From positions 3,874,001 through 3,938,000 of the forward strand of contig OU015666.1 of assembly GCA_907165275.2 (NCBI GenBank): 64,000 nucleotides of DNA, read 5' to 3'. The translations under genes were made by a program, and so were the position numbers. The DNA comes from Zygaena filipendulae (Eukaryota; Arthropoda; Insecta; Lepidoptera; Zygaenidae). Within the stretch, counting starts at the first letter, position 1. The number at the start of each line of letters is the position of its first letter. Shown here in pieces: positions 7,158 through 61,677 of the stretch. Below the pieces are notes generated by a model that worked only from the letters and a program-made list of their open reading frames with translations, did no database searches and was not told where the DNA came from.

Positions 7158-7678
7158 TAAAAGGAATCTTTAAAAGGCATCAACTATGAATCGTGTTTTG
7201 TTAGTTCAGTTTTTAATTTCTTTTTATTACGACGATGAGACAAAAAGGGGGGAAATCAAAAAACACTACTACTGGTGGGTTGAAATAACTTCATCATCAT
7301 CATTCATTTTCGCTTTAGTCCAAGGTTATCGAATGTCCTTGTTTACATTTACAACTAAATTTTTATTACGATGTTCCACTACGTACAAAAGGCAATTTGA
7401 CTAAATCTTTTGTTTGTATTCCGTCTGGTAGATTTCTAAAAAAAAATATTGGACACGTATTTTTTTTAACGTAATCAAAAAATAACGGTTATACCTCAGA
7501 GTAAATATACTACGTACTGTAGCGAATGTTGTCTCGGACACTTGTTTTGAACAGTCTCTATAGGAGTAAATTTTGCAATCAACTAATATTGAACTAGAGC
7601 GTGCTGAAGATAATTATAATAATTAAAGGTGAGCTCGCGAGCCGCGTTCCCGGGGGAGGCTGGACCAGGGCTCGCAGC

Positions 7679-8130
7679 TTAGCCCTTGTTCTCCACTGGG
7701 GTGGTGTTGAGGCTGGTCGGCGGCTTGTTCACTAACGTCTTGAACTGTTCCGGAATTGGTAGCTCCGTATCATCTCCATTCGGTTTCGGCCTCTCACATT
7801 CCTTCACTTTCCGTCCGTCAAAAAATCTCTTCTCATTTTTCAATTCCATCTGACGTCCCAAAAAAAAATAATAATAAAAAAGGTTGATATTGTAGCAGAA
7901 TGCTACAGTACGTTATACGTTGTTGGGTCAAAGTATATTTTCATCTTACCTGTTCTAAAATGGTAAAATATTTGTCCCCATAGGACTTTTAGTTTCTCCT
8001 TCCTGATTGGTCCGCGTTCATGCTTCTGTAGATAAGTTAGGTTGTAGTCGCTCGCTTGAAGGTTTTGTTTTATTACACTTTCAATCCGATGTCTGATACT
8101 TTTTATGTAGGCACTCGTACATTTTCTCAC
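7679..8130 (-). CDS. Unresolved putative exons of an unknown gene
   Basis: Two minus-strand open frames look somewhat coding. One (8130-7903) contains QASDYNLTYLQKHERGPIRK and reaches a good donor, ACAG|GTAAG, near 7944. The other (7861-7679) follows a pyrimidine-rich tract and CGTCAG, opens ATGGAATTGAAAAATGAG and ends VENKG then a stop. However, joining that donor to that acceptor shifts the frame and meets an early stop, and the first frame has no ATG. I do not recognise either protein. They lie just downstream of the sorting nexin's last exon on the same strand. They may be exons of another gene, or chance. Confidence 0.25.
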
Positions 8131-8499: not shown

Positions 8500-11400
8500 T
8501 CATTTGATCGCCCGCGCTTCCGGCAGGAACGCGTCCCAGTAACGGATGGCCTGAAATCATAATAGTTATTTAACAGAGAGATAAGAAATAAATTCGCGAT
8601 GAAAATATGACATAACCAGCTGTTCCTCGCGTTAATGTCGGAGTTCCCGCGGGAATTCCGGGATAAAAAGTACCCTATGCCCTTTTCTGTACATCTAACA
8701 ATGTGTATGCAAAATTTCACGATGATGGGTTGAGTACTTAAGCCTTGAAAGTGTTACAAACAAACAAACAAACTCGCATTCGTTACATCACCGACAATAG
8801 GGTAAAAATAACGGGAAAACCGCAAATAACTAGATGAAGGCATAATGTCCGTTTTCACCAACACCCCCTATACTACCACCTAAGTATGGGATCCTTTACT
8901 TAAAAGCTTCTCTAAACCAGCCCCTGAATTGTGATTTGTGAGCCCCTAACAGTTGGTGAAACAGAAACAACCGTCTAACGGTCACCTAAAAAGGGGTTTA
9001 GGGGATCCCGTAAACTCCCCCGAGGGTGCCTCCCCCCCCAGCTGCGCGTGCGCAGCGCGGGCCGGCGCGTGCTGGCTACCTGCGCCTGGTGGTGCATGTG
9101 GTGCTCGAGGTAGCGCAGCAGCGCGGCGCGCGTGTAGGCTACCTGCGCCTGGTGGTGCATGTGGTGCTCGAGGTAGCGCAGCAGCGCGGCGCGCGTGTAG
9201 GGTACCTGCGCCTGGTGGTGCATGTGGTGCTCGAGGTAGCGCAGCAGCGCGGCGCGCGTGTAGGGTACCTGCGCCTGGTGGTGCATGTGGTGCTCGAGGT
9301 AGCGCAGCAGCGCGGCGCGCGTGTAGGGTACCTGCGCCTGGTGGTGCATGTGGTGCTCGAGGTAGCGCAGCAGCGCGGCGCGCGTGTAGGCTACCTGCGC
9401 CTGGTGGTGCATGTGGTGCTCGAGGTAGCGCAGCAGCGCGGCGCGCGTGTAGGGTACCTGCGCCTGGTGGTGCATGTGGTGCTCGAGGTAGCGCAGCAGC
9501 GCGGCGCGCGTGTAGGGTACCTGCGCCTGGTGGTGCATGTGGTGCTCGAGGTAGCGCAGCAGCGCGGCGCGCGTGTAGGGTACCTGCGCCTGGTGGTGCA
9601 TGTGGTGCTCGAGGTAGCGCAGCAGCGCGGCGCGCGTGTAGGGTACCTGCGCCTGGTGGTGCATGTGGTGCTCGAGGTAGCGCAGCAGCGCGGCGCGCGT
9701 GTAGGGTACCTGCGCCTGGTGGTGCATGTGGTGCTCGAGGTAGCGCAGCAGCGCGGCGCGCGTGTAGGGTACCTGCGCCTGGTGGTGCATGTGGTGCTCG
9801 AGGTAGCGCAGCAGCGCGGCGCGCGTGTAGGGTACCTGCGCCTGGTGGTGCATGTGGTGCTCGAGGTAGCGCAGCAGCGCGGCGCGCGTGTAGGGTACCT
9901 GCGCCTGGTGGTGCATGTGGTGCTCGAGGTAGCGCAGCAGCGCGGCGCGCGTGTAGGCTACCTGCGCCTGGTGGTGCATGTGGTGCTCGAGGTAGCGCAG
10001 CAGCGCGGCGCGCGTGTAGGGTACCTGCGCCTGGTGGTGCATGTGGTGCTCGAGGTAGCGCAGCAGCGCGGCGCGCGTGTAGGGTACCTGCGCCTGGTGG
10101 TGCATGTGGTGCTCGAGGTAGCGCAGCAGCGCGGCGCGCGTGTAGGGTACCTGCGCCTGGTGGTGCATGTGGTGCTCGAGGTAGCGCAGCAGCGCGGCGC
10201 GCGTGTAGGGTACCTGCGCCTGGTGGTGCATGTGGTGCTCGAGGTAGCGCAGCAGCGCGGCGCGCGTGTAGGGTACCTGCGCCTGGTGGTGCATGTGGTG
10301 CTCGAGGTAGCGCAGCAGCGCGGCGCGCGTGTAGGGTACCTGCGCCTGGTGGTGCATGTGGTGCTCGAGGTAGCGCAGCAGCGCGGCGCGCGTGTAGGGT
10401 ACCTGCGCCTGGTGGTGCATGTGGTGCTCGAGGTAGCGCAGCAGCGCGGCGCGCGTGTAGGGTACCTGCGCCTGGTGGTGCATGTGGTGCTCGAGGTAGC
10501 GCAGCAGCGCGGCGCGCGTGTAGGGTACCTGCGCCTGGTGGTGCATGTGGTGCTCGAGGTAGCGCAGCAGCGCGGCGCGCGTGTAGGGTACCTGCGCCTG
10601 GTGGTGCATGTGGTGCTCGAGGTAGCGCAGCAGCGCGGCGCGCGTGTAGGGTACCTGCGCCTGGTGGTGCATGTGGTGCTCGAGGTAGCGCAGCAGCGCG
10701 GCGCGCGTGTAGGGTACCTGCGCCTGGTGGTGCATGTGGTGCTCGAGGTAGCGCAGCAGCGCGGCGCGCGTGTAGGGTACCTGCGCCTGGTGGTGCATGT
10801 GGTGCTCGAGGTAGCGCAGCAGCGCGGCGCGCGTGTAGGGTACCTGCGCCTGGTGGTGCATGTGGTGCTCGAGGTAGCGCAGCAGCGCGGCGCGCGTGTA
10901 GGCTACCTGCGCCTGGTGGTGCATGTGGTGCTCGAGGTAGCGCAGCAGCGCGGCGCGCGTGTAGGCTACCTGCGCCTGGTGGTGCATGTGGTGCTCGAGG
11001 TAGCGCAGCAGCGCGGCGCGCGTGTAGGGTACCTGCGCCTGGTGGTGCATGTGGTGCTCGAGGTAGCGCAGCTGCGCGGCGCGCGTGTAGGGTACCTGCG
11101 CCTGGTGGTGCATGTGGTGCTCGAGGTAGCGCAGCAGCGCGGCGCGCGTGTAGGGTACCTGCGCCTGGTGGTGCATGTGGTGCTCGAGGTAGCGCAGCAG
11201 CGCGGCGCGCGTGTAGGGTACCTGCGCCTGGTGGTGCATGTGGTGCTCGAGGTAGCGCAGCAGCGCGGCGCGCGTGTAGGGTACCTGCGCCTGGTGGTGC
11301 ATGTGGTGCTCGAGGTAGCGCAGCAGCGCGGCGCGCGTGTAGGGTACCTGCGCCTGGTGGTGCATGTGGTGCTCGAGGTAGCGCAGCAGCGCGGCGCGCG

Positions 11401-14400
11401 TGTAGGGTACCTGCGCCTGGTGGTGCATGTGGTGCTCGAGGTAGCGCAGCAGCGGGGCGCGCGTGTAGGGTACCTGCGCCTGGTGGTGCATGTGGTGCTC
11501 GAGGTAGCGCAGCAGCGCGGCGCGCGTGTAGGGTACCTGCGCCTGGTGGTGCATGTGGTGCTCGAGGTAGCGCAGCAGCGCGGCGCGCGTGTAGGGTACC
11601 TGCGCCTGGTGGTGCATGTGGTGCTCGAGGTAGCGCAGCAGCGCGGCGCGCGTGTAGGGTACCTGCGCCTGGTGGTGCATGTGGTGCTCGAGGTAGCGCA
11701 GCAGCGGGGCGCGCGTGTAGGGTACCTGCGCCTGGTGGTGCATGTGGTGCTCGAGGTAGCGCAGCAGCGCGGCGCGCGTGTAGGGTACCTGCGCCTGGTG
11801 GTGCATGTGGTGCTCGAGGTAGCGCAGCAGCGCGGCGCGCGTGTAGGGTACCTGCGCCTGGTGGTGCATGTGGTGCTCGAGGTAGCGCAGCAGCGCGGCG
11901 CGCGTGTAGGGTACCTGCGCCTGGTGGTGCATGTGGTGCTCGAGGTAGCGCAGCAGCGCGGCGCGCGTGTCGGCCAGCCGCGTCTCCTCCCACCGCTCCA
12001 GCTCCTTCTTGATCACGCGCGAGATCGTCTCGAACTCGTTCTGCCCGCGCTCCACCTTCGCCTCCCACTGGTGCCACCGACAAGAGTGCAAGTCAAGTCA
12101 ATACGCACGTTTCCGGGGTATGATTAATCAGTACATAGTATAAAATAAAGTCGCTTTCGTATATCCCTATGTATGCTTAAATCTTTAATACTACGCAACG
12201 GATTTTGCTGCGGTTTTCACCAATAGATAGAGTAATTCATGAGGAAGGTTTATGACTATATTTTATCCTGAAATTCCCGCGGGAACTCCGAAAAAAAAAC
12301 GAATAACGTCGTACAACCTGTAGCACGTTGTGACGTCATGCGACATTTCGACTTAATGTATCTCCGTTATTTTTTGATTCAGTACGTAAAAAAATGAAAA
12401 ATATGTGTCCAATATTTTTTGTTTATCTACATGACGGAGTAAAAAATTAAAATTTAGTTAACTAGCCCATTCAACACTCTATACAGATGAACTGATTCAA
12501 GTACTTTCCCACAGCCAGCTTGTACACGTGGGCACTTTTTGTGCGCACGTGCGTGTTTGTCGCAAGATTGACAACAAGCTGACAGTAACTGTCAGCTGAC
12601 AGTGAATAACTGTCATATGTACATTCTAAATGTGTCAAATTTTCCTCAGTCAGGGAGGCGGAGAGTGTCGCTTCTTTATAAATCTCAATTCTCTGCTATC
12701 GCTTTTAATTTCATCAAAGTAATAGATTTTAATTTCATAATTTTTAGAACGCTTGCTCATAAAATTGCTGTTATTGAACCACCGGCTTTTATGTTCATAG
12801 CACACAGTTTATTAAACACACGTGCCGTTTACATTACCGCACTAGCGCTTAAACTTTCAGTTTTGTTAAACTAAACAAAAAAAAAACATCACACTAATGC
12901 TTTAACTTTAGTTTTTTTGACATTTCAACAAAAAAAATTGAATTACCACATTACTACTTTTAATAATAATGTGTTTGCCTCGGTGCTATTTGTAATGTTA
13001 TCTTATTTCAAGGTTTTATATTATTAGGTGCAATGATTATATTATTATTGTTGTTGTCTCACATCAATGATTTCGTTGGAGGCCTGTTCGATTTTCTCCG
13101 GTCGGTTCGCCAGTTCCGCCTTGGCCTTGTTCTCTCTCCGCTTGTTCAGTTGCATTTGGGCGTGTTGCCAGTTTTGGAAAACCTATAAATCATAAGAAAA
13201 ACACGATAATAATAAAGAATCCTTATAATTGGGTATTCCCCAAGGTATGAAAATCAAAATTATAATTAGTCCGTCAGTTAGAAAATAAAAAAATAATAGA
13301 CACATATTTTTTGCTTTTTCAATTTAATGAAAATGAACATAGATAAAGCGCATTAAAGTTTAGGGTGGGGGACTCGTGACGTCAATATTCATTATAAGCC
13401 CCATACAAACTGCACCGGGTTGTGACGTCACGAGAAATTTCAACTCAATGCATCTCCGTTATTTATTGATTAGGTACGTAAAAAAAGAAAAAATACGTGT
13501 CTAATATTTTTTACTAATCTACACGACGGACTAAAAAAAAAATTTTGTCAAGTAGCCAATTACTAAAATGCAAATGCGAGAAGCAGGCGAAACAGCGAGA
13601 AACAGATAGTTATCCAGTGAAGACTAGCATTTTTAGATCTATAGTCTGATGTATAGATAGGCTTAATTTTAGTAAGGTTATCTAGTTGATACCCCGATTG
13701 GGACGGCTTGATCTATTGAAAACAGGGTTCTGCTTCTCAGTCGGGGCGTATTTATCATTACAATTGTTATAAAACAAAGTCCTCCACTACGTCTGTCTGT
13801 CGTTTCGCGATAAACTCAAAAACTAATGCACAGATTTTCATGTGGTTTTTACCAATAGATAGAGTGAATAATGAGGAAGGCTTAGATATATTATAATTTA
13901 GCAGTTTTGTGTAAATTGGTTGACATATAACGATAATTGTTTGGAAGCGCCGGAAAAAGTACTTTGTTACGCTTTTACACGTTAACTACGCCTGGGGATC
14001 AAGTAGATCTGTATGCCGTAATAAAGTTACAGCTTAATGTCTGTTCGAGTATGTTCTGTTTGAGTTGTGAAGTGTTCAACTTATTACCTTGACTCTTTCA
14101 TGGAACACATCCTTGATGGACCCAATGAGGCCGAGATAGTCCTTGATGTGCTCAGTCAATACGTAGAAGTCGGTGTTGGACTGCTCCAGCCTCAAATGCT
14201 CCATCTAGATAGCAAGGTGGTGTTGAAATATTATAAAGCTGAAGAGTTTGTTTGTTTGGTTGAACTCGCTAATCTCCGGAACCACTGGTATGAATTGAAA
14301 AAATAATACACTTTTGCTTTTTCGAATGATTGAAAAAATACTTGGATAAAACGCATTTAAGTTTAGAAGTAGGAGGTCACTGCGTCATAACTAAGTAGTG

Positions 14401-17400
14401 TACCTATGAGTGACATCACACGTAATTTCAACTCAATGTATCGCCTTAATTATTAGATTACGTAAAAAAAGCCAAAATTCGTGTCCAATATTTTTCACTA
14501 GCTGTGCCCCGCGATTTCACCCGTTGTCCTTCTCTGTACCCCTGACAACGTGTATTGCCAAATTTCATCTAAATCCGTTAAGCCGTTTTTGCGTGATTGA
14601 GTAACAAACATCCAAACATCCACACTTTCACATTTATAATATTTATTTATTTATTCATTCTTTTTTGCACAAAAAGGTACAAATGGCGAACTTAATGCAT
14701 TGCAGCATTTTCTACCAAAATTTTTAGGTTTTATCTTGTTGTAGTTATTAGTAGTCTTAGCGTATTTGTATTATTAACTTCACAGTGCCTTAGTTTTACT
14801 GTAATGCTGTAAAATTTTTTGTGTTATAAATAAATAAATAAATAAATTGATAACAATATATTAGTAGGATTAATCTGCAGGACGGACTGTAAGCAAAAAT
14901 TGAGTCATCACGCCTTATTGTGTGCGGTAGGTATAGGTGTACCTTCTCGTGCAGGTCGGCGAGGTGCGAGAGCGCGCGCGACAGCGGCGCGTGCGGGTCG
15001 GCGGCGGCGAGCGCGGCGGCGGCGCGGCCCGCGTCGTGCGCGCGCGCGCCCGCCTCGCGCCGCTCGCCCGCCAGCGCCTCGCACGCGCCGCACAGCCGCC
15101 GCAGGCTCGCCTCCAGCGCCTCCACGCGCGCCGACCGCTCCTCGAACCACTGCCCACCCGGCACAGATAAGCAATAACATGGTAACCCACAATATGAATG
15201 TTATCGATTCGGAACGATTTGTAGAGAGGCAGAGAACGTTTTTTAATTATGAGTTCACCTTATTGCATTTGTTTAAATATGTAATACTAAATATTGCGCA
15301 TAAAAAATGTTGACACAAAATGGCGCTATAATTTTAAAACTTTAAATTTACTCAAAATTTCTCCAGCGTGGGTTAACACACTATTGCTTATCTATGTCCA
15401 ATTAGAGGCATCAACATAAGGCGTGGACGTGTACTCTCCAATATAGATAAGATTAGATTAGATTTATTTATTTCGCTTTAACATTAATAACAGTATACAT
15501 ATACATTATATGTATACACAGTGTTATTCATAAAAGGGATCTTCATTTAAAATTGAATAAAAATAGAAACAATAGGCATGTCAAGGGGGCGTCCGTTAAT
15601 CACGCGAGGCGCGAAACGGGGGGGGGAGATATCACGTGTATTTATTTTTCGTATTTAAAGATAATTTTCTGGAATTTTTAAAATACACGTGAATTTTGGT
15701 ATAGGCGGGGGAGTCTAAAACCTCGCCGTCACCACATAATTATCACCAAAGCGGAGGAGGGGTCCAAAAGTTGCTAAAAAAACATCACAATATGATTAAT
15801 GGACGCCTAAGCTGCTACCACTGACTGAGGAGAAATTCGCTCGGTTATATCTGTTCAGTAGAAACTGTCATTCGGCAAATTTCTTGGCTCTAGCAGTAAG
15901 TGAAGCTCTTTGTAGTGTGGCCTTAGCCTTAGGGTTTATCATTGTTGTGATGCTCTCCTACTTTTCATAGAGGGGAGTGTTCATCGATAGCATGTCCTTT
16001 CGGATGAACACTGTAATATCAGTGCAGAGCAGGCATCGCTGCACTGCTCAAGAAATTTTCATGTCACTTTTTCAATGTGTCAGTAAAACGATACCGTATC
16101 TCGACTACTGTAAGCCTATTTTTGAAGTGACTTCGTGCCAAATTATATTGCTTACGTTGCTTACAATAGCAAATTTTTAACATACAGGGTCAGACTCGTC
16201 CATCCTGTAGGTGATCTTGTTGACCGTCTCGCCGACCTTGTTGAACAGCCGCAGCATGCCGGCGCCGCTCAAAGCAGAGGTGCTAGTCGCTTTCGGCAAC
16301 TCCATCTCTGCAGGTTGACGAACAGATAATCGGTCAGTTTACTTATATATTAGATAACTTTGATGCGCACTAGACAGTAACAGTTATAAAAGTAGTATTG
16401 TAAAAAAAAAAATCTTACCGGACTCGAGGAACTCCCTGAAGTCGGGGTCGATGCACAGCACGGGGTGCTGCGCCACGCGGTTGAGGAAGCGCTCGAGCGC
16501 CGCGCGCCGCCGCTCCACGAACTCCGAGTGCACGCTGCCGCCCCCCGCGCCGCCGCCCGCGCCACCCGCGCCGCCCGCGCCGCCCGCCGCGCCGTTCGCG
16601 CTCTCCGCGGACGGCGTGGACGACATCTTCAGCTTGGTAGTACCTTTACACGTAACATTGAAAAAATGGATATTTTCCAAGGTATGAAGATCAAAATTCT
16701 AATTAGTCCGTCAGATAGAAAATAAAAAAAATAATAGACACGTATTTTTTAACTTTTCAAATTAATGAACATAAACATAGACAAAGCGCATTAAAGTTTA
16801 GGGTGGGAGACTCGTGCGTACAAACTGCACCAGGATGTGATACGTAACATTTTTTTCATACCACCTGCTCGATAATGTCCAATTACATATCTTAATAATT
16901 AACCAAATAATAAAATTGATGAAAAAATTTCCTGATAATAAAAATAACTAAACTTATTTAACCAATTACAAGTTGGACCAACTGCGAATTGGACCATTTG
17001 CGAATTGGACCATTTGAGAATTGGACCATTTGCGAATTGGACCATTTGCTAATTGGACGGTTTGCGAATTGGACATTTTAAACCCTCTGGACCATTTGCG
17101 AATTGGACCATTTGCGCCTAAACGCACATCGTTCAGGCGCATTTCGTCCAATTCGCAAATGGTCCAATCCTCCAATTCGCAAATCGTCCAATTCGCAAAT
17201 GGTCCAATTCGCAAATGGTCCAATTCGCAAATGGTCCAATTCTCAAATGGTCCAATTCGCAAATGGTCCAATTAGCAATTGGTCCAGTTCGAAATTGGAC
17301 TTGGTGCAATTTGTAATTGGTCAGATAAGTTTCGTTATTTTTATTATTAAGAAGATTACTTATCAAATGTTTGGTGACCCAAATAAATTAAAAAAAAAAA

Positions 17401-20400
17401 AGATAAAATAAAGATAAATAAAAAGATTTTATTTCAGACTAACTGTTCCCCGTGGTTTCAGCGGCGTTAATTTCGGAGATTTCGTGGGAATTATGGGATA
17501 AAAGTACCCTTTATCCTTTTCTGTACCCCTGAAAAAGTGTACTATTTCAAATTTATTGTAGTTTCACACGCATTAATTTCGGAGTTTCCGCGGAAATTTT
17601 GGAATGAACAAAATTTAAAAAAAAATATTAAAACCGACTTCCAAAAACACAAAAATAAAAAGCTAAAAATAAAAAGCTAATAATGACAAAATACCGCTTT
17701 ACTTAATCCAAAACACAAAAACACACGTAATATTATTATTGGTTTGTGCTACAACAGATCGGTTTGAATTCGGTGACAAGCCAAATATGGAGGGGGTAGA
17801 TGGGCTAAGTCGACTCTTGCCACCAGCTCTTCGTGAGCAGAACAACCCAAGTAGGCAGACACCAGCGGGTTTTTAGTTTTGTGTTTTTGGAAGTCGGTTT
17901 TAATTTTTTTTTTGTTAAAATTTTGTTTATTTCTCGCTTTTAAGTGACTTAGTTGGTAATTTCTCCAAATTACCTCTAGTATTATAATTAAATATTGTAT
18001 TAAATATAAACATAAGTATATAACTTTATTATTTACTTAATAATATTTTTATGCGCAGTTTTAATTAAAATTAATAATTAACCAAATAATAAAATTGATG
18101 AAAAAATTTCCTGATAATAAAAATAACTAAACTTATTTAACCAATTACAAGTTGGACCAACTGCGAATTGGACCATTTGCGAATTGGACCATTTGCGAAT
18201 TGGACCATTTGAGAATTGGACCATTTGCGAATTGGACCATTTGCTAATTGGACGGTTTGCGAATTGGACATTTTAAACCCTCTGGACCATTTGCGAATTG
18301 GACCATTTGCTAATTGGACGGTTTGCGAATTGGACATTTTAAACCCTCTGGACCATTTGCGAATTGGACCATTTGCGCCTAAACGATCACATTACATCCC
18401 AACCCAAGAGAGGGAGGTAATGTTGTATGAAACTTCCAAGGGAATAAAGTGATTTGAGTTTGGAACGTTATTTGTTGGAAAACACTTTTTTTTTGTTTTC
18501 TTTTTATGCGATCTGCCTGTGATGGCCAGTTCTATTTTTGAATAAACCGTCTGCCCATGTAAAGAGGGTTTATGTCTCGCAGTAGGTATGAAAAGTAGAT
18601 TATGCACCTCGAGGATAAAGCCTGTCTTCGTCACGGGCAGCTTAAACCCCTCGCTTAACTCAGGACTCTACATAACTTTATATTTTAAATACCCTCGCCA
18701 CGCTCGGGGATTAACTCTAGAGTCCATCGTTACCATGGATTGTTACGCTCAGGGTTCAATAGGCCGCCGGTGACGTAAGACAGTGCTTTACTCCCTCGGT
18801 GCATAATCTACTATTATTAATCTAAATTCTACACGACGGACTAATAAAAAAACTAGCCCATTGTTCCTAAACTATGTCTACCTAGACCATCATGTACAAT
18901 AATGTGCACATCACATTGTAACATTACAGAGGTACGATAGGAATGAGTTGGTGACACGGCATAACACGCTTTTCACTGGTAAGAGAACAAACACATACTA
19001 CATGACCCATTCAGGTGGAGTCTTCAAACTTCAACAGCTCACGCTGGGTCACAGGGGCGGGAGAAGGGGGCTTAGGTTTTCGCCACGTAGTCAATATCTT
19101 CTTGGTAAAAGGACGTCAGCTGATTTAAATCTGAATAAAATTGTCCTACAGATCATGATAAATGAAATAATAAATAAATAATGAATACATAATTATAATT
19201 AAAAATAACTACTAGATACGAATCTAACACTAAAATAATTTTTCAAATCAGATTCCTGAGATTAGCGCGTTCAAGTAAACAAACAAACTCTTCAGCTTTA
19301 TAATATTAGTATAGATAGATAGTATAGATAAATAGATAATCTAATACATTTTATACTTTGTGAAATCAGACAGATACAGATACATCAAGAGGTAATGATT
19401 TACTACAGATCTTAACGTCTCACCGACAATACTCTTCTCCGGTGCTGGGGGAATAATTCTGCCCGTGTGTAGGTATTTCTCTGTAAGTTTTCCATGCAAG
19501 CCAAGGAAATCGCTAAAACGTCTCGGCACAGAGAACTCGTGCTTGCTGAATATTGGCATATTGGTTTTAGTGAGCACCCGGTACGCCACATAAGAGCTCA
19601 TGCCTTCTCCAATCTTTTGTGGCTCGGTGATCGTGATTATGATGTTGTTAGCGCGTTCTGTTGCTATCTGTAAACAATGTTACCTTGTAATTTTTTTGTG
19701 AGTAACCAAGTTTATGATTACGCAGACTTTGGCTTTTACATAAATTAGACTGATTTACCCACATGCACGGTCAGCGATTTTTGTAAGAGAGATAACGCGA
19801 ATATCGATAACAGGCATAAAACCAATTTTATCCTTATACAACTTAAGGATAAATATGTTTTATACATGTTTTTAATCTAAAATATAATATGGGACATTCA
19901 ATGGAACTTTCACCAAGTTTTATCTATTTACCTCTTCCATGATTGGACTGGCCAGCAAGGCAGCTGGTGCAGGATCATCACCAATTGAAACTTGCTCCAT
20001 ACTGTCACGAGCCCCATTCACCTCACGGTCCAGACTTACCTCCTGCATCAAAACTATACTTAAACTATGTACATTGTACAACTATTATATTCAGATATAC
20101 CCACACTTCTAAAATACTGATGATCTAAACTAATATTATAAAGGGGAAAGATTTAATTTTTTGTTTGTTAAGATTTAACTCAAAAACTACTGGACTGATT
20201 TCAAAAATTCTACCTTATTTCTGAGTAATATAAGCTATATTGTAACCCTGAATTCCCATGTAACTGCAGGAAACAGCTAGTCTATGATAAATTAACCAAT
20301 CAGATCTTGATTTTTTTTGTGCTCTCTCTCTTTTTGTCAACTCAGACTATCTATATTAATATCACAAAGAGGTAAAGTTTGTGAGTTTGTGACATTGTAG

Positions 20401-26000: not shown

Positions 26001-28811
26001 CATCGCGCACGTGCGCTCCACGCGCGCCGACCTCACCAACCACGTGCCCGTCGTCGCGGTGGAGGGGTTCATAGCGGAGGCCATCCCAGACAGGTAATAA
26101 TAATAATCCACTACACAACACACAGATCTACTTGATCGCACAGTAAGCTATTATTAGCTTGTGCTGTCGAAACCAAGCAAACGTGGTATATAGTACGTAG
26201 AATTACATAATTATATATTATACTATTTTATAATATATAAAGCTAGATTGCCACTCACTCATTGACATAATTGTTCTCCCAGAAGGAGCCACTCTAGGTT
26301 GATATAATGTATGGAACATGTAGAGGGGACGTTTCGGTGATTATGGGAAAACCTCGACATCTTCGATTTCTGCTTCTCATCAGGTAGTGAGTCGACTGCC
26401 CGCCGAAACTATCCATCGAAAGTGAAAACGTTTCTAACTAAATTTCATCCACACCTTGGGCAAATTTCAATAGTGTAACTTTTTTTTCAAAATGGCGGAA
26501 AAAAACATGGCCGCCGAACAAAATTCAAACTCGATTATCTCCGAAACTAAAAGAGTCAGGTGGGGGGTGCTCGAACAAATAGAGGTCAATGGGGGGCAAC
26601 CGGGCACAGGGCGACCAAGCCTCGCGGTCGCGAATAGGGCGAATCTAGTTATACTATTAATATATAAACACATCCAGACTGGAAAGTGGAACCCTGTGTT
26701 CATCACACAAAATGCACCCCCACCGGGAATCGAACCCGGAACCTCTTGATTAGCAGGCAGGCATGGTGACCTACTACGCCAATCAGCGCAAGCTTATCTA
26801 TTATAAGCGGTTTCACCGGTGTTAATTAAGGGACAAAAGTAGTATAGGAGTATAGTGTTTTATAATGCCAGATGGTACGAGCAATCGTTACTGGTGCTGT
26901 CGCGGCCGTCGCTCGCGCTGGAGCTCCACGCGCTGTCGCAGGGCTGTGCGCTGCCCGCGGCGGCGGCGGCGGCGGCGCGCGCGGCCACGCCCGCCGACTA
27001 CCCGCACAGCGCCACAGGCTACAGCCTCCCCATCGGCGCGGTCATGGCCGACAGCCTGCAGGTAACACTGGCCCCCCGCGCGCGCCCGCCGACTACCCGC
27101 ACAGCGCCACAGGCTACAGCCTCCCCATCGGCGCGGTCATGGCCGACAGCCTGCAGGTAACACTGGCCCCCCGCGCGCGCCCGCCGACTACCCGCACAGC
27201 GCCACAGGCTACAGCCTCCCCATCGGCGCGGTCATGGCCGACAGCCTGCAGGTAACACTGGCCCCCCGCGCGCGCCCGCCGACTACCCGCACAGCGCCAC
27301 AGGCTACAGCCTCCCCATCGGCGCGGTCATGGCCGACAGCCTGCAGGTAACACTGGCCCCCCGCGCGCGCCCGCCGACTACCCGCACAGCGCCACAGGCT
27401 ACAGCCTCCCCATCGGCGCGGTCATGGCCGACAGCCTGCAGGTAACACTGGCCCCCCGCGCGCGCCCGCCGACTACCCGCACAGCGCCACAGGCTACAGC
27501 CTCCCCATCGGCCCGGTCATGGCCGACAGCCTGCAGGTAACACTGGCCCCACGCGCGCGCCCGCCGACTACCCGCACAGCGCCACAGGCTACAGCCTCCC
27601 CATCGGCGCGGTCATGGCCGACAGCCTGCAGGTAACACTGGCCCCCCGCGCGCGCCCGCCGACTACCCGCACAGCGCCACAGGCTACAGCCTCCCCATCG
27701 GCCCGGTCATGGCCGACAGCCTGCAGGTAACACTGGGCCCCCCTCCGCCCGCCATGCCCGCCGACTACCCGCACAGCGCCACAGGCTACAGCTTCCCCAT
27801 CGGCGCGGTCATGGCCGACAGCCTGCAGGTAACACTGGCCCCCCGCGCGCGCCCGCCGACTACCCGCACAGCGCCACAGGCTACAGCCTCCCCATCGGCC
27901 CGGTCATGGCCGACAGCCTGCAGGTAACACTGGCCCCACGCGCGCGCCCGCCGACTACCCGCACAGCGCCACAGGCTACAGCCTCCCCATCGGCGCGGTC
28001 ATGGCCGACAGCCTGCAGGTAACACTGGCCCCCCCGCGTGCGCTCGCCGACTACCCACACAGTGACACAGACTACAGCCTCCCTATCGGCGCGGTCACGG
28101 CCGACAGCCTGCAGGTAACATTGCCCGCCCCCCTCCGCCCGCCACGCTCGCCGACTACCCGCACAGTGACACAGACTACAGCCTCCCCATCGGCGCGGTC
28201 GTGACAGCCTGCAGAATATGTATGTACGCATCCGTGAAGATAAAGTGGGGAAGCTTGAAGTTGGCGGGGGGGGGGGGGGGGACTCGCTTCTTTACCTACT
28301 AATCAGTGTAAATAGATAGTACATACCAATTCAAACTTGTTGGTAATGGGGATGTGGACTACTTTTGAAAATCAAAATTCTAATTAGTCCGTCAGTTAGA
28401 AAATAAAAAACAATAGACACGTATTTTTTTGCAAATAAATTAAAATATACAGAGATAAAGCGCATTAAAGTTTAGGGTGAGGGGGTCGTGACGTCACTAA
28501 CCGCTAAAACCGCCATACAAACTGTCAGAATAGTGACGTCACGCGAAATTTCAACTCAATATATCGCCGTTATTTTTTGATTACGTAAAAAAAGAAAAAA
28601 TACGTGTCCAATATTTTTTTAATAATCTACAACACGGAGTAAAAAATAAAAATTAGTCCACATGCCCATTATGGTGTGTACGCAGGTGCCGCGTGCGCAG
28701 TGGCAGGAGGCGTGCGCGGGCGTGTCGCGGCGCGAGACGCTGGCGCTGGCGGCGCGAGCGCTGGCCGGCGCTTACAAGCGGCAACTTGCTATATCCGCCG
28801 CGGAGGCCTAA
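23052..28811 (+). CDS. PRRC1: PRRC1 (proline-rich coiled-coil protein 1)
   Basis: Coding exons: 23052-23195, 23527-23636, 24116-24234, 24438-24584, 25154-25256, 25923-26093, 26872-27061, 28686-28811. Phases agree at every junction and give 369 aa (human PRRC1 is about 445). The N-terminal third is proline-rich and disordered (PEAPVPLGGPGGSG). The conserved C-terminal fold shows SSVDSMITTLDPQMKEYL, GGDIYVVVASDKDIKI, AAQPVGYAAAYAA, VAVEGFIAEAIPDRW and a final SRRETLALAARALAGAYKR, matching PRRC1 block by block. PRRC1 is reported as a regulator linked to ER-Golgi (COPII) traffic and PKA. The intron before the last exon begins in a tandem array of donors (see 26991-28214). Exon 1 uses the donor ATT|GTAGGT; the tempting alternative GTAG|GTGAAA would bring a stop. 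Confidence 0.94.
26660..26800 (-). repeat. tRNA-derived SINE fragment, second copy
   Basis: It has the same head and body as 2693-2830: B box GGTTCGATTCC within CCGGGTTCGATTCCCGG, A-box-like TGGCGTAGTAGG, and GTGATGAACACAGGGTTCC. It lies in PRRC1 intron 6. Confidence 0.72.
26872..27061 (+). CDS. PRRC1: PRRC1 coding exon 7, form ending at the first donor
   Basis: The exon follows AATGCCAG and begins with the last base of an Arg codon, then WYEQSLLVLSRPSLALELHA. It contains an Ala-rich run (LPAAAAAAARAATPADYP), then HSATGYSLPIGAVMADSLQ, and ends CTGCAG|GTAACA. Ending here gives phase 0 and an in-frame join to VPRAQWQEACAGVSRRE in the last exon, as in the family. Each later donor copy would extend the exon by 95 nt and lose this frame. 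Confidence 0.85.
26991..28214 (+). repeat. ~95-bp tandem array of an exon end plus its 5' splice site, 13 copies
   Basis: The exon-end motif CTGCAG followed by GTAACA(C/T)TG ends at 27061, 27156, 27251, 27346, 27441, 27536, 27631, 27726, 27828, 27923, 28018 and 28114. The thirteenth copy (28214) reads GCAGAATATG and has lost GT. Spacing is 95 bp except 102, 96 and 100 near the far end. About 70 bp of each unit are the coding end of exon 7 and about 25 bp are intron start. Divergence rises toward the far end, where the youngest-looking units give way to diverged ones. The region is far more GC-rich than its surroundings. Confidence 0.96.
28344..28671. mobile_element. MITE family B, complete copy in the last PRRC1 intron
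   Basis: It runs from TAATGGGGATGTGGACTA to TTAGTCCACATGCCCATTA, with AGTCCGTCAGTTAGAAAAT and ACACGGAGT inside. CGTGACGTCACTAACC and TAGTGACGTCACGCG flank the centre. It is the best copy for defining the family's outer ends. Confidence 0.82.
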
Positions 28812-51179: not shown

Positions 51180-51450
51180 CAGTTCGCGATAATCTCTGAA
51201 TCTACTGAACGGATTTCGGATTACATGCGGTTTTCGCAGGTAGATTAAGCTTAGCCTGGATCTACATATAGGCTTTGTTTAATTCAAATCGGATGTCAAG
51301 AAAAAAAAGTTGTTACATAAAAACTTTTCACGCAAGTGAAACCGCGGGGCACAGCTAGTTTCTTAATAAAATCTAGTCCATATAACGTTTACTTTTTGGT
51401 TATTTTTGTGGAATCTATGTTTGGGATCCCAAATTATCGGTTTCTTTTAA

Positions 51451-52330
51451 AATAATTCTAGAAACCAAAACGTTTCTTGTTGCAAGTTACAACCAATCCA
51501 ATTATGCAGTTTAAAAGCACACAACCATCGCGGCCCAAAGTTGAAACCCGACTGAAGCGAGAACGCGAGTGTAAACACCACGCTCGCTTTGACGCGAGGT
51601 CCTTTGACTCGTGACCAAAAAACCGCTCCGGAAGCGAGCGGTGCGAGTGACGAGGCGAACCACGCGGCGAGCCCCTAGCGTCTGTTCACACTCGCGCCTC
51701 GTCCCTCGCCCCGCGCCTCTTGCTCCTTTTTCGTCCCTTTGACTCGTGACAAAAAAGCCGCTCCGGGGGACGCGAGCGGCACAAGCGACGAGGCGAACCA
51801 CGCGGCGAGCGACGAAGCGCGAATGTAAACAGTCGCTCGGGGCTCGCCGCGTGGTTCTCCTCGTTGCTCGTACGCGAGTGTAAATGACGCTTAAAATAAT
51901 TCTAGAAACCAAAACGTTTCTTGTTGCAAATTGCAACCAATCCATTTTTGCAGTTTAAAAGCACACAACCATCGCGGCCCAAAGTTGAAACCCGAATGAA
52001 GCGAGAACGCGAGTGTAAACACCACGCTCGCTTTGACGCGAGGTCCTTTGACTCGTGACCAAAAAACCGCTCCGGAAGCGAGCGGTGCGAGTGACGAGGC
52101 GAACCACGCGGCGAGCCCCTAGCGTCTGTTCACACTCGCGCCTCGTCCCTCGCCCCGCGCCTCTTGCTCCTTTTTCGTCCCTTTGACTCGTGACAAAAAA
52201 GCCGCTCCGGGGGACGCGAGCGGCACGAGCGACGAGGCGAACCACGCGGCGAGCGACGAAGTGCGAATGTAAACAGTCGCTCGGGGCTCGCCGCGTGGTT
52301 CGCCTCGTCGCTCGTACGCGAGTGTAAATC
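51451..52330. repeat. 444-bp tandem duplication upstream of NEURL2
   Basis: AATAATTCTAGAAACCAAAA starts at 51451 and again at 51895, an exact 444-bp shift, and the two copies match closely through to about 52330. Each copy contains several stretches of the TTTACACTCGC family in both orientations and GAGGCGAACCACGCGGCGAG boxes. Minus-strand open frames inside are by-products of the GC-rich palindromes. The duplication ends about 210 bp before the NEURL2 start codon, so it sits on or next to that promoter. Confidence 0.88.
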
Positions 52331-59894: not shown

Positions 59895-61677
59895 AATACA
59901 GTTGCTCAAAAAGTGGCGTATTGCAGGGACGTTTAGCGTTCGGGATGTGGGCTATTACATACTCGAGCTTTTTGTTTACCTTTCCCGAACTCGTGCGTTC
60001 TCTTTGCCAACTGTCAAAAATGGCGACACGACTTTGACACACTTTTTGCATTGCGAAACGTAGGTTTCGCATTACTAATACGACTAGCGCCATCTCTTGA
60101 TCACAGTTGGAACTTAGTTGAGTTTGTTGTGTTTTTGATATTTTATTAAATTGCTTAATTTTTTCGTAACTGTATTAAAAATAGTTGTTCAGTACACGTG
60201 CGGAACCGTCATTGCAACTAGTTCCGACTGTCAACCCTCACCTTCGGCTGCGCCTCGGCTCGGGTAGACATTTGTTGGAACTCTTTGTAATGACAGCCTT
60301 TCCGCACTTGTAACGAAATAGTATGACGGTTCCGCACGTGTACTGAACAACTATTTTTAATAATAATAATAATAATATAGATTTATTTCAGACCTGAGTC
60401 CATAGTAGTGTTGGTAACAATCGTCTTACATGCTAGGGTTAGTATTTAACAAAGCTGAATTCTAATTTACATGAAGGTGTACCCACCTCCGCAACAGCGG
60501 TGAGTCCCACCTGTCCGCAAACACACTCAGGATGGTGTTAGTGCTGCCTCGAAGACGTGTCAGCAAGGAGGCGCACTGTTTCCTAATTATGGCAGCAAAA
60601 CCATCGGTCCGCGCCTCTGCGAACATTCCAGACGCACTACTACGCCTCGGCAGCCCCAACACCCTCCTAAACGCGTTATTATACTGGACACGCAGGTCGC
60701 TGTCCGCATTTTTAATACAGTTGCGAAAAAAATGAAGAAATTTAGTAAAATAATAAAAACACAAACTCAACTAAGTTCCAACTGTGATCAAGAGATGGCG
60801 CTAGTCATATTAGTAATACGAAACCTACGTTGCGCAATACAAAAAGTGTGTCAAAGTCGTTTCGCCATTTTTGACAGTTGGGAAAGTGAACGCACGAGTT
60901 CGGAAAAGGTAAAGAAAAAGCTCGAGTATGTAATAGCCCACTTCCCGAACGCTATACGTCCCTGCAATATGCCACTTTTTGAGCAACTGTATTAAAAAAT
61001 AATAAAAACACAAACTCAACTAAGATCCAACTGTGATCAAGAGATGGCGCTAGTCGTATTAGTAATACGAAACCTACGTTGCGCAATACAAAAAGTGTGT
61101 CAAAGTCGTTTCGCCATTTTTGACAGTTGGGAAAGAGAACGCACGAATTCGGAAAAGGTAAAGAAAAAGCTCGAGTATGTAATAGCCCACTTCCCGAACG
61201 CTATACGTCCCTGCAATATGCCACTTTTTGTGCAACTGTATTAAAATAGTATATTTCATTATAAGTGCGGAAAGCCTGTCATTGCAAAGAGTTCCGACAA
61301 ATGTCTACCCGAGCCGAGCCGCAGCCGAAGGTGAGGGTTGACAGTCGGAACTAGTTGCAATGACGGTTCCGCACGTGTACTGAACAACTATTTTTAATAC
61401 AGTTACGAAAAAATTAAGCAATTTAATAAAATATCAAAAACACAACAAACTCAACTAAGTTCCAACTGTGATCAAGAGATGGCGCTAGTCGTATTAGTAA
61501 TGCGAAACCTACGTTTCGCAATGCAAAAAGTGTGTCAAAGTCGTGGCGCCATTTTTGACAGTTGGCAAAGAGAACGCACGAGTTCGGGAAAGGTAAACAT
61601 AAAGCTCGAGTATGTAATAGCCCACATCCCGAACGCTAAACGTCCCTGCAATACGCCACTTTTTGAGCAACTGTATT
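59895..61677. repeat. Large inverted repeat, 436-bp arms, with a nested LINE and two extra units
   Basis: The arms are 59895-60330 and 61242-61677. Each consists of a 282-bp element with AATACAGTTGC/TTACG-type ends (59895-60176 minus; 61396-61677 plus) and a second module with CTTCGGCTGCGCCTCGGCTC. The arms differ at only a few sites that I can find. The spacer contains a LINE fragment (60362-60707) and two more copies of the 282-bp element type (60714-60993, and 60994-61242, which lacks its left end). A further copy of the second module is at about 59730-59840. Confidence 0.85.
60362..60707 (-). mobile_element. 3' end of a non-LTR retrotransposon with 9-bp target duplication
   Basis: On the minus strand it translates to DSDLRVQYNNAFRRVLGLPR, RSSASGMFAEARTDGFAAI, IRKQCASLLTRLRGS and a final RRWVHLHVN. 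That is the extreme C-terminus of LINE reverse transcriptase proteins of the CR1/Jockey type. It ends in an AAT/ATT microsatellite tail. ATTTTTAAT occurs at both edges (60353-60361 and 60708-60716) as a target-site duplication. It is a dead 5'-truncated copy. Confidence 0.8.

Follow-up and report, generated by a model that had tools for sequence, protein, structure and literature searches.

What does a gene do with a splice donor that is present 46 times in tandem? The question is raised by a sorting nexin (SNX) gene of the moth Zygaena filipendulae, located in a stretch of 64,000 nucleotides of contig OU015666.1 (assembly GCA_907165275.2, positions 3,874,001 to 3,938,000), hereafter the window, in whose coordinates the positions of features are given. 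At the end of exon 9 of this gene, a short unit holding the exon end and the intron start is repeated over almost 3 kb. The array is probably a minisatellite that arose when DNA spanning the 5′ splice site of exon 9 was duplicated in tandem, and a member of a class of exon-edge arrays in this genome; splice sites multiplied in tandem at GC-rich exon edges are found in several genes. The class gives the impression of a repeat type that recurs and is tolerated by splicing, not of a dial of protein length, and the use of inner donors in SNX, each adding 21 residues, is probably minor and without function.

The host gene is an SNX1/2 sorting nexin with 10 exons and GT-AG introns on the minus strand. 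Its exons and array are given below; exons 1 to 8 are those of the gene model, with Pfam PX and Vps5 support for the product.

21188-21102, minus strand: exon 1
20042-19932, minus strand: exon 2
19667-19424, minus strand: exon 3
16643-16419, minus strand: exon 4
16307-16186, minus strand: exon 5
15149-14943, minus strand: exon 6
14204-14088, minus strand: exon 7
13182-13063, minus strand: exon 8
11915..12067, minus strand: exon 9 by donor 1, 153 nt, acceptor ggcaccag/TGGGAG
9050..11970, minus strand: minisatellite of 63 bp × 46.4 (Tandem Repeats Finder, TRF: period 63, 99% matches)
9080..11914, minus strand: 2835 nt added by use of the last donor (945 codons, without a stop)
8500..8550, minus strand: exon 10, encoding AIRYWDAFLPEARAIK and the stop, acceptor tgatttcag/GCC

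The array comprises 46 tandem copies of 63 bp, running on the minus strand from position 11968 to 9071, with all 45 spacings between copies exactly 63 bp. Each unit is composed of 54 nt of the exon 9 end and 9 nt of intron start beginning with GTA, and the donor CAG/GTA is present in 46 of 46 units, bearing out the sequence-only reading of this DNA, which had described 46 donors at a period of exactly 63 in an open frame, one in-frame donor per unit just before AIRYWDAFLPEARAIK. The exon part of the unit encodes TRAALLRYLEHHMHHQAQ barring three single-residue exceptions (A>P in copies 5 and 9, L>Q in copy 15), and CAG is followed by GTACCC in 40 copies and by GTAGCC in six (copies 16, 17, 32, 41, 45 and 46). 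The head-to-tail units, within the range of roughly 10-100 bp and in many copies, make the array a minisatellite, and the combination of exon and intron in one unit, with a splice site within the TRF span, makes it an exon-intron-boundary repeat. A search of the same genome with two units returned 22 matches, all inside the array, from a tool that scores just its best candidates. A partial 47th unit was sought in the SNX intron, where the local score, 32, fell short of the maximum for shuffled sequence, 40, and was not significant.

Splicing from donor 1 would give a protein of 478 aa and from the last donor one of 1423 aa, the maximum; reading through the array upheld the length range that had been proposed, with the frame unchanged. 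The product carries a PX domain (PF00787, E 3.1e-24) and a Vps5-type BAR domain (PF09325, E 2.6e-70), and its nearest named proteins among the 120 relatives listed are lepidopteran. No gap interrupts the alignment of the donor-1 form to three SNX1 chains across the exon 9-10 join, nothing being inserted between YLE..QAQ and AIRYWDAFLPEA, and this form therefore corresponds to the conserved SNX form. An SNX intron also holds arrays of a 16-bp unit, TTGGACCATTTGCGAA, at 16973-17320 and 18152-18377, the first of which contains both orientations, and a short minus-strand open frame downstream of SNX (7650-7850, QMELKNEKRFFDGRKVKECERPKPNG...) resembles part of another gene.

A second array of this kind is found in the divergent neighbour of SNX, a PRRC1-like gene that matches lepidopteran PRRC1 proteins.

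26872..27061, plus strand: PRRC1-like exon 7 by donor 1, from lepidopteran PRRC1 matches
26988..28200, plus strand: minisatellite of 95 bp × 12.6 (TRF), spanning the exon 7 donor
28686..28811, plus strand: last exon, ending in TAA, in frame from donor 1 only

Here the motif CTGCAG/GTAACA is present in 12 copies, and a thirteenth unit is without the GT. Reading on past donor 1 reaches a TAA at 27158-27160, at donor 2. Since donor 1 alone among the 12 donors yields the PRRC1 C-terminus when joined to the last exon, the gene needs donor 1 despite eleven further copies. Repeated 10-mers were absent from the 120 PRRC1 proteins listed.

Beyond these two genes, seven further arrays in the genome include a splice site, four of them a donor and three an acceptor. 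Most belong to a pattern of three CAGGTACC words at 20-80 bp spacing, for which the full list holds 14 loci, compared with control hits of 0+2 and 0+0; all 13 loci besides SNX were inspected, several of their exons being judged by open frame and GT-AG alone. At 11 of the 14, the array includes a splice site or starts at most 31 nt from a donor: four have a donor inside, two an acceptor inside and five start after a donor, although CAGGTACC itself resembles a donor, so that loci using it as the splice site were partly selected for, whereas the five that follow a separate donor were not. These loci, together with the two splice-site arrays from other word lists, are as follows.

C4 array, 30 × 23 bp: donor inside; exon by open frame and GT-AG only
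C8 array, 7.8 × 52 bp: donor inside; exon by open frame and GT-AG only
C15 array, 9.2 × 22 bp: donor inside; APC1 exon, E 1.4e-9
C12 array, 22.8 × 32 bp (L050): acceptor inside; WD40-like, E 7e-4, below the curated cut-off
C22 array, 16.2 × 25 bp (L044): acceptor inside; exon by open frame and GT-AG only
C7 array: starts 31 nt (best TRF row) or 16 nt (next row) after the donor; SID-1, E 5e-18
C18 array: starts 17 nt after the donor; ClpX, E 7e-4
C19 array: starts 19 nt after the donor; PI4KA, E 1.3e-14
C26 array: starts 17 nt after the donor; anoctamin, E 3e-27
C27 short array, 2.9 × 21 bp: starts 19 nt after the donor; GH31-like, E 0.0014, below the cut-off
L053, G000:C7:88400-89900, 76 bp × 9.4: donor GGCG/GTGAGT inside the unit; kinase exon, PF00069 E 7.8e-8
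Zinc-finger-like exon array, 39 bp × 12.8: acceptor inside; hand-picked from the AGGTAAG list, exon weakly supported

The acceptor arrays L044 and L050 mirror those at donors. Relatives were sought for the exons at the C4, C8 and C22 arrays, none convincing. Counting SNX and the PRRC1-like gene, the units of the nine splice-site arrays measure 63, 95, 23, 52, 22, 76, 32, 25 and 39 bp, two of the nine being divisible by three.

The word GGCGCC, unrelated to splicing, served as a less biased check, with tandem arrangement judged by eye in listed matches that cover C1-C9 and the start of C10. Among these matches are five tandem places: one, the kinase exon, has a donor inside, two are near a presumed donor (on C10, starting 14 nt after it; on C4, 0-5 nt from it, where a relative was sought and none found), and two do not lie at a junction (a presumed exon is about 230 nt from the first, and no exon was seen at the second). 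Three CAGGTA words gave at least 202+341 hits, against 37+134 in the control for that pattern, the matches listed reaching into C7. A comparison set of four arrays drawn from this list comprises one that begins 5 nt downstream of a presumed donor (relative sought, none found), one whose end lies 55 nt upstream of the acceptor of an exon matching PWP2 (E 2e-14), and two beside which no exon was seen. A genome scan of the kinase family returned 133 matches with no evident array, a scan that short units would escape; one kinase exon does carry an array, as listed above. One further 70-bp array, in which a unit contains as many as three CAGGTAAG words, occurs in like form on two chromosomes (G000:C7:5172245 and G000:C22:5051051).

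Repeats at exon ends are also predicted in other moths. The 120 SNX relatives include 38 named lepidopteran entries, and in four of these 38 SNX2 predictions, internal repeats end at exon ends of the window's SNX model.

Plodia X1 SNX2 (gene prediction): repeat at the end of exon 6
Galleria SNX2 (gene prediction): repeat at the end of exon 6
Operophtera brumata SNX2 (gene prediction): repeats at the ends of exons 4 and 9
Phthorimaea SNX2 (gene prediction): repeat at the end of exon 9 and a repeat within exon 6

Among the remaining 82 relatives, repeated 10-mers were detected in one sea urchin entry, 236 residues apart. The Galleria, Plodia and Operophtera proteins have additional residues between copies, compatible with an intron start; the Phthorimaea exon 9 repeat is without such residues and may be a plain exon duplication. 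The GC content of exons 4, 6 and 9 of the window's SNX gene is 0.76, 0.83 and 0.69, and that of the remaining exons 0.47-0.63. A wider generalization can be proposed only tentatively, at somewhat less than even chances: that in Lepidoptera minisatellites arise repeatedly at GC-rich exon edges and multiply the splice sites, that dozens of identical sites are tolerated because the outermost is chosen by exon definition, and that the arrays are a lasting source of new introns and length variants.

A simple mechanism could account for the arrays. Slippage or unequal exchange would start the duplications, at GC-rich exon edges. Where the duplicated segment spans a donor, the exon and donor 1 would stay whole and the new copies would fall in the intron; where it spans an acceptor, the mirror case would apply and the last acceptor would be kept. 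Exon definition would then select the outermost site, so that the array would behave as an intron, remain silent and escape selection.

Several observations weigh against this explanation or narrow it. The predicted U1 pairing of the array donors (-7.1, -7.7 and -8.0 kcal/mol) falls among the values at the other donors of the two genes (-1.9 to -8.3 kcal/mol), and since the array donors pair with U1 like other donors, donor strength gives no reason for donor 1. Between two equal donors, splicing experiments often favour the one nearest the acceptor, the reverse of the choice proposed here, and the use of donor 1 in SNX is itself deduced from sequence. Three of the 14 CAGGTACC loci do not fit, namely the C25 array, which ends 92 nt before a presumed acceptor, the C11 array, within which a presumed stop codon falls, and, on C18, a 7-bp array with no exon seen beside it. 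Three AGGTAAG words were less frequent than their control (7+80 versus 778+533 hits), and the GC-rich loci L029-L031 were chosen by hand from pattern lists. A random 200 kb (20 × 10 kb) contained one array over the thresholds, with no evident exon beside it. Finally, in several arrays the TRF span takes in little of the exon (4, 7, 8, 10, 12 and 19 nt; in the others 37, 56 and 74 nt).

The alternative that survives best, although we consider it unlikely, is a leaky ladder, in which many of the 46 donors are used and the resulting spread of SNX lengths has no selected role but is tolerated, as every form stays in frame. The SNX donors are near-identical and of ordinary strength, and in the Plodia X1 and Operophtera predictions, which are gene models, the following exon is attached to a late copy. 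Leakage would, however, shift the frame in PRRC1 and, by unit length, in seven of the nine arrays, and the seven SNX proteins of 783-2490 aa retrieved by a search that scored part of the candidates include no lepidopteran.

A selected length dial, with the array encoding graded extensions of the last BAR helix, appears highly improbable. What suggests it is that 63 bp equal 21 codons, or three heptads, and that the 945 added codons stay open, yet both the open frame and the divisibility by three are expected by chance. With shuffled units, 71% of trials give an open frame, a share that rises to 93% when just the 9 intron bases are shuffled; because near-identical units all share the same frame, its openness amounts to about one event and not to 45. 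A unit length divisible by three has a chance of 1 in 3, and as two of the nine splice-site arrays have such units, the in-frame SNX unit is no more than chance gives; similar arrays elsewhere are mostly out of frame. Of the 45 links between SNX units, 40 read V-P-Y, with a proline, and five V-A-Y, and in a single-sequence AlphaFold model of exon 9 plus three units, taken as a hint alone (low confidence, mean pLDDT 53), the helix breaks at every link. All three exonic copy differences alter the protein. Of the two options that the sequence-only reading had left standing, use of the first donor with the rest as an intronic satellite would fit best; a functional heptad ladder is disfavoured by the frame expected by chance, the seven out-of-frame arrays, the proline links and the PRRC1 donor 1, and the isoform-ladder idea is weakly supported. 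Least credible of all is an assembly artefact; the idea that the assembler multiplied SNX copies draws on their 99% likeness, as judged from the assembly alone, and is opposed by variants scattered among the copies, by arrays of differing units in many genes and by similar repeats in other lepidopteran gene models.

Read as minisatellites across splice sites, these arrays are natural constructs of up to 46 near-identical competing sites, at donors as well as acceptors and with both in-frame and out-of-frame units, from which the rule for choosing among equal splice sites could be read. They also suggest that exon edges are a mutational hot spot, which may contribute to changes in introns, and they carry a warning for annotation: only when a short junction read extends back by more than one unit can it tell which copy was used. 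Elsewhere in the window, two near-perfect two-copy tandem duplications were noted (51447-52329, 444 bp; 60747-61246, 249 bp).

When compared to known systems, the gene resembles SNX1 and SNX2 in its PX and Vps5/BAR domains and in aligning, across the exon 9-10 join, with SNX1 of solved structure, and it differs in an oddity confined to the exon 9 end and the following intron. The earlier statement that no gene of this layout had been described has to be qualified, as the predicted SNX2 of Operophtera brumata reads like a similar array at exon 4 and human repeats at exon-intron boundaries have been published (PMC2812944). No report of donor-multiplying arrays in insects was recognised in searches of open-licence literature, and as far as the searches show, what is new relative to that literature is the copy number, the splice site within the unit, and the recurrence within one genome and, as gene models indicate, across other moths. 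In human genes located in segmental duplications, internal tandem repeats that lie at exon-intron boundaries are reported to change splicing or make new introns (PMC2812944), with 27 intron modifications and units averaging 30 bp in 4 repeats. Both systems thus have a minisatellite-like repeat at an exon-intron boundary; unlike the human repeats as described there, the moth arrays have units that carry the donor, reach up to 46 copies, occur in an insect genome and affect acceptors as well. A second comparison is intron gain through tandem genomic duplication of AGGT segments, in which one duplication within an exon is reported to create a new intron (PMC3443670). In both cases a splice-site sequence is multiplied by tandem duplication, but in the arrays described here, in contrast to that account, it is an existing splice site that has been multiplied.

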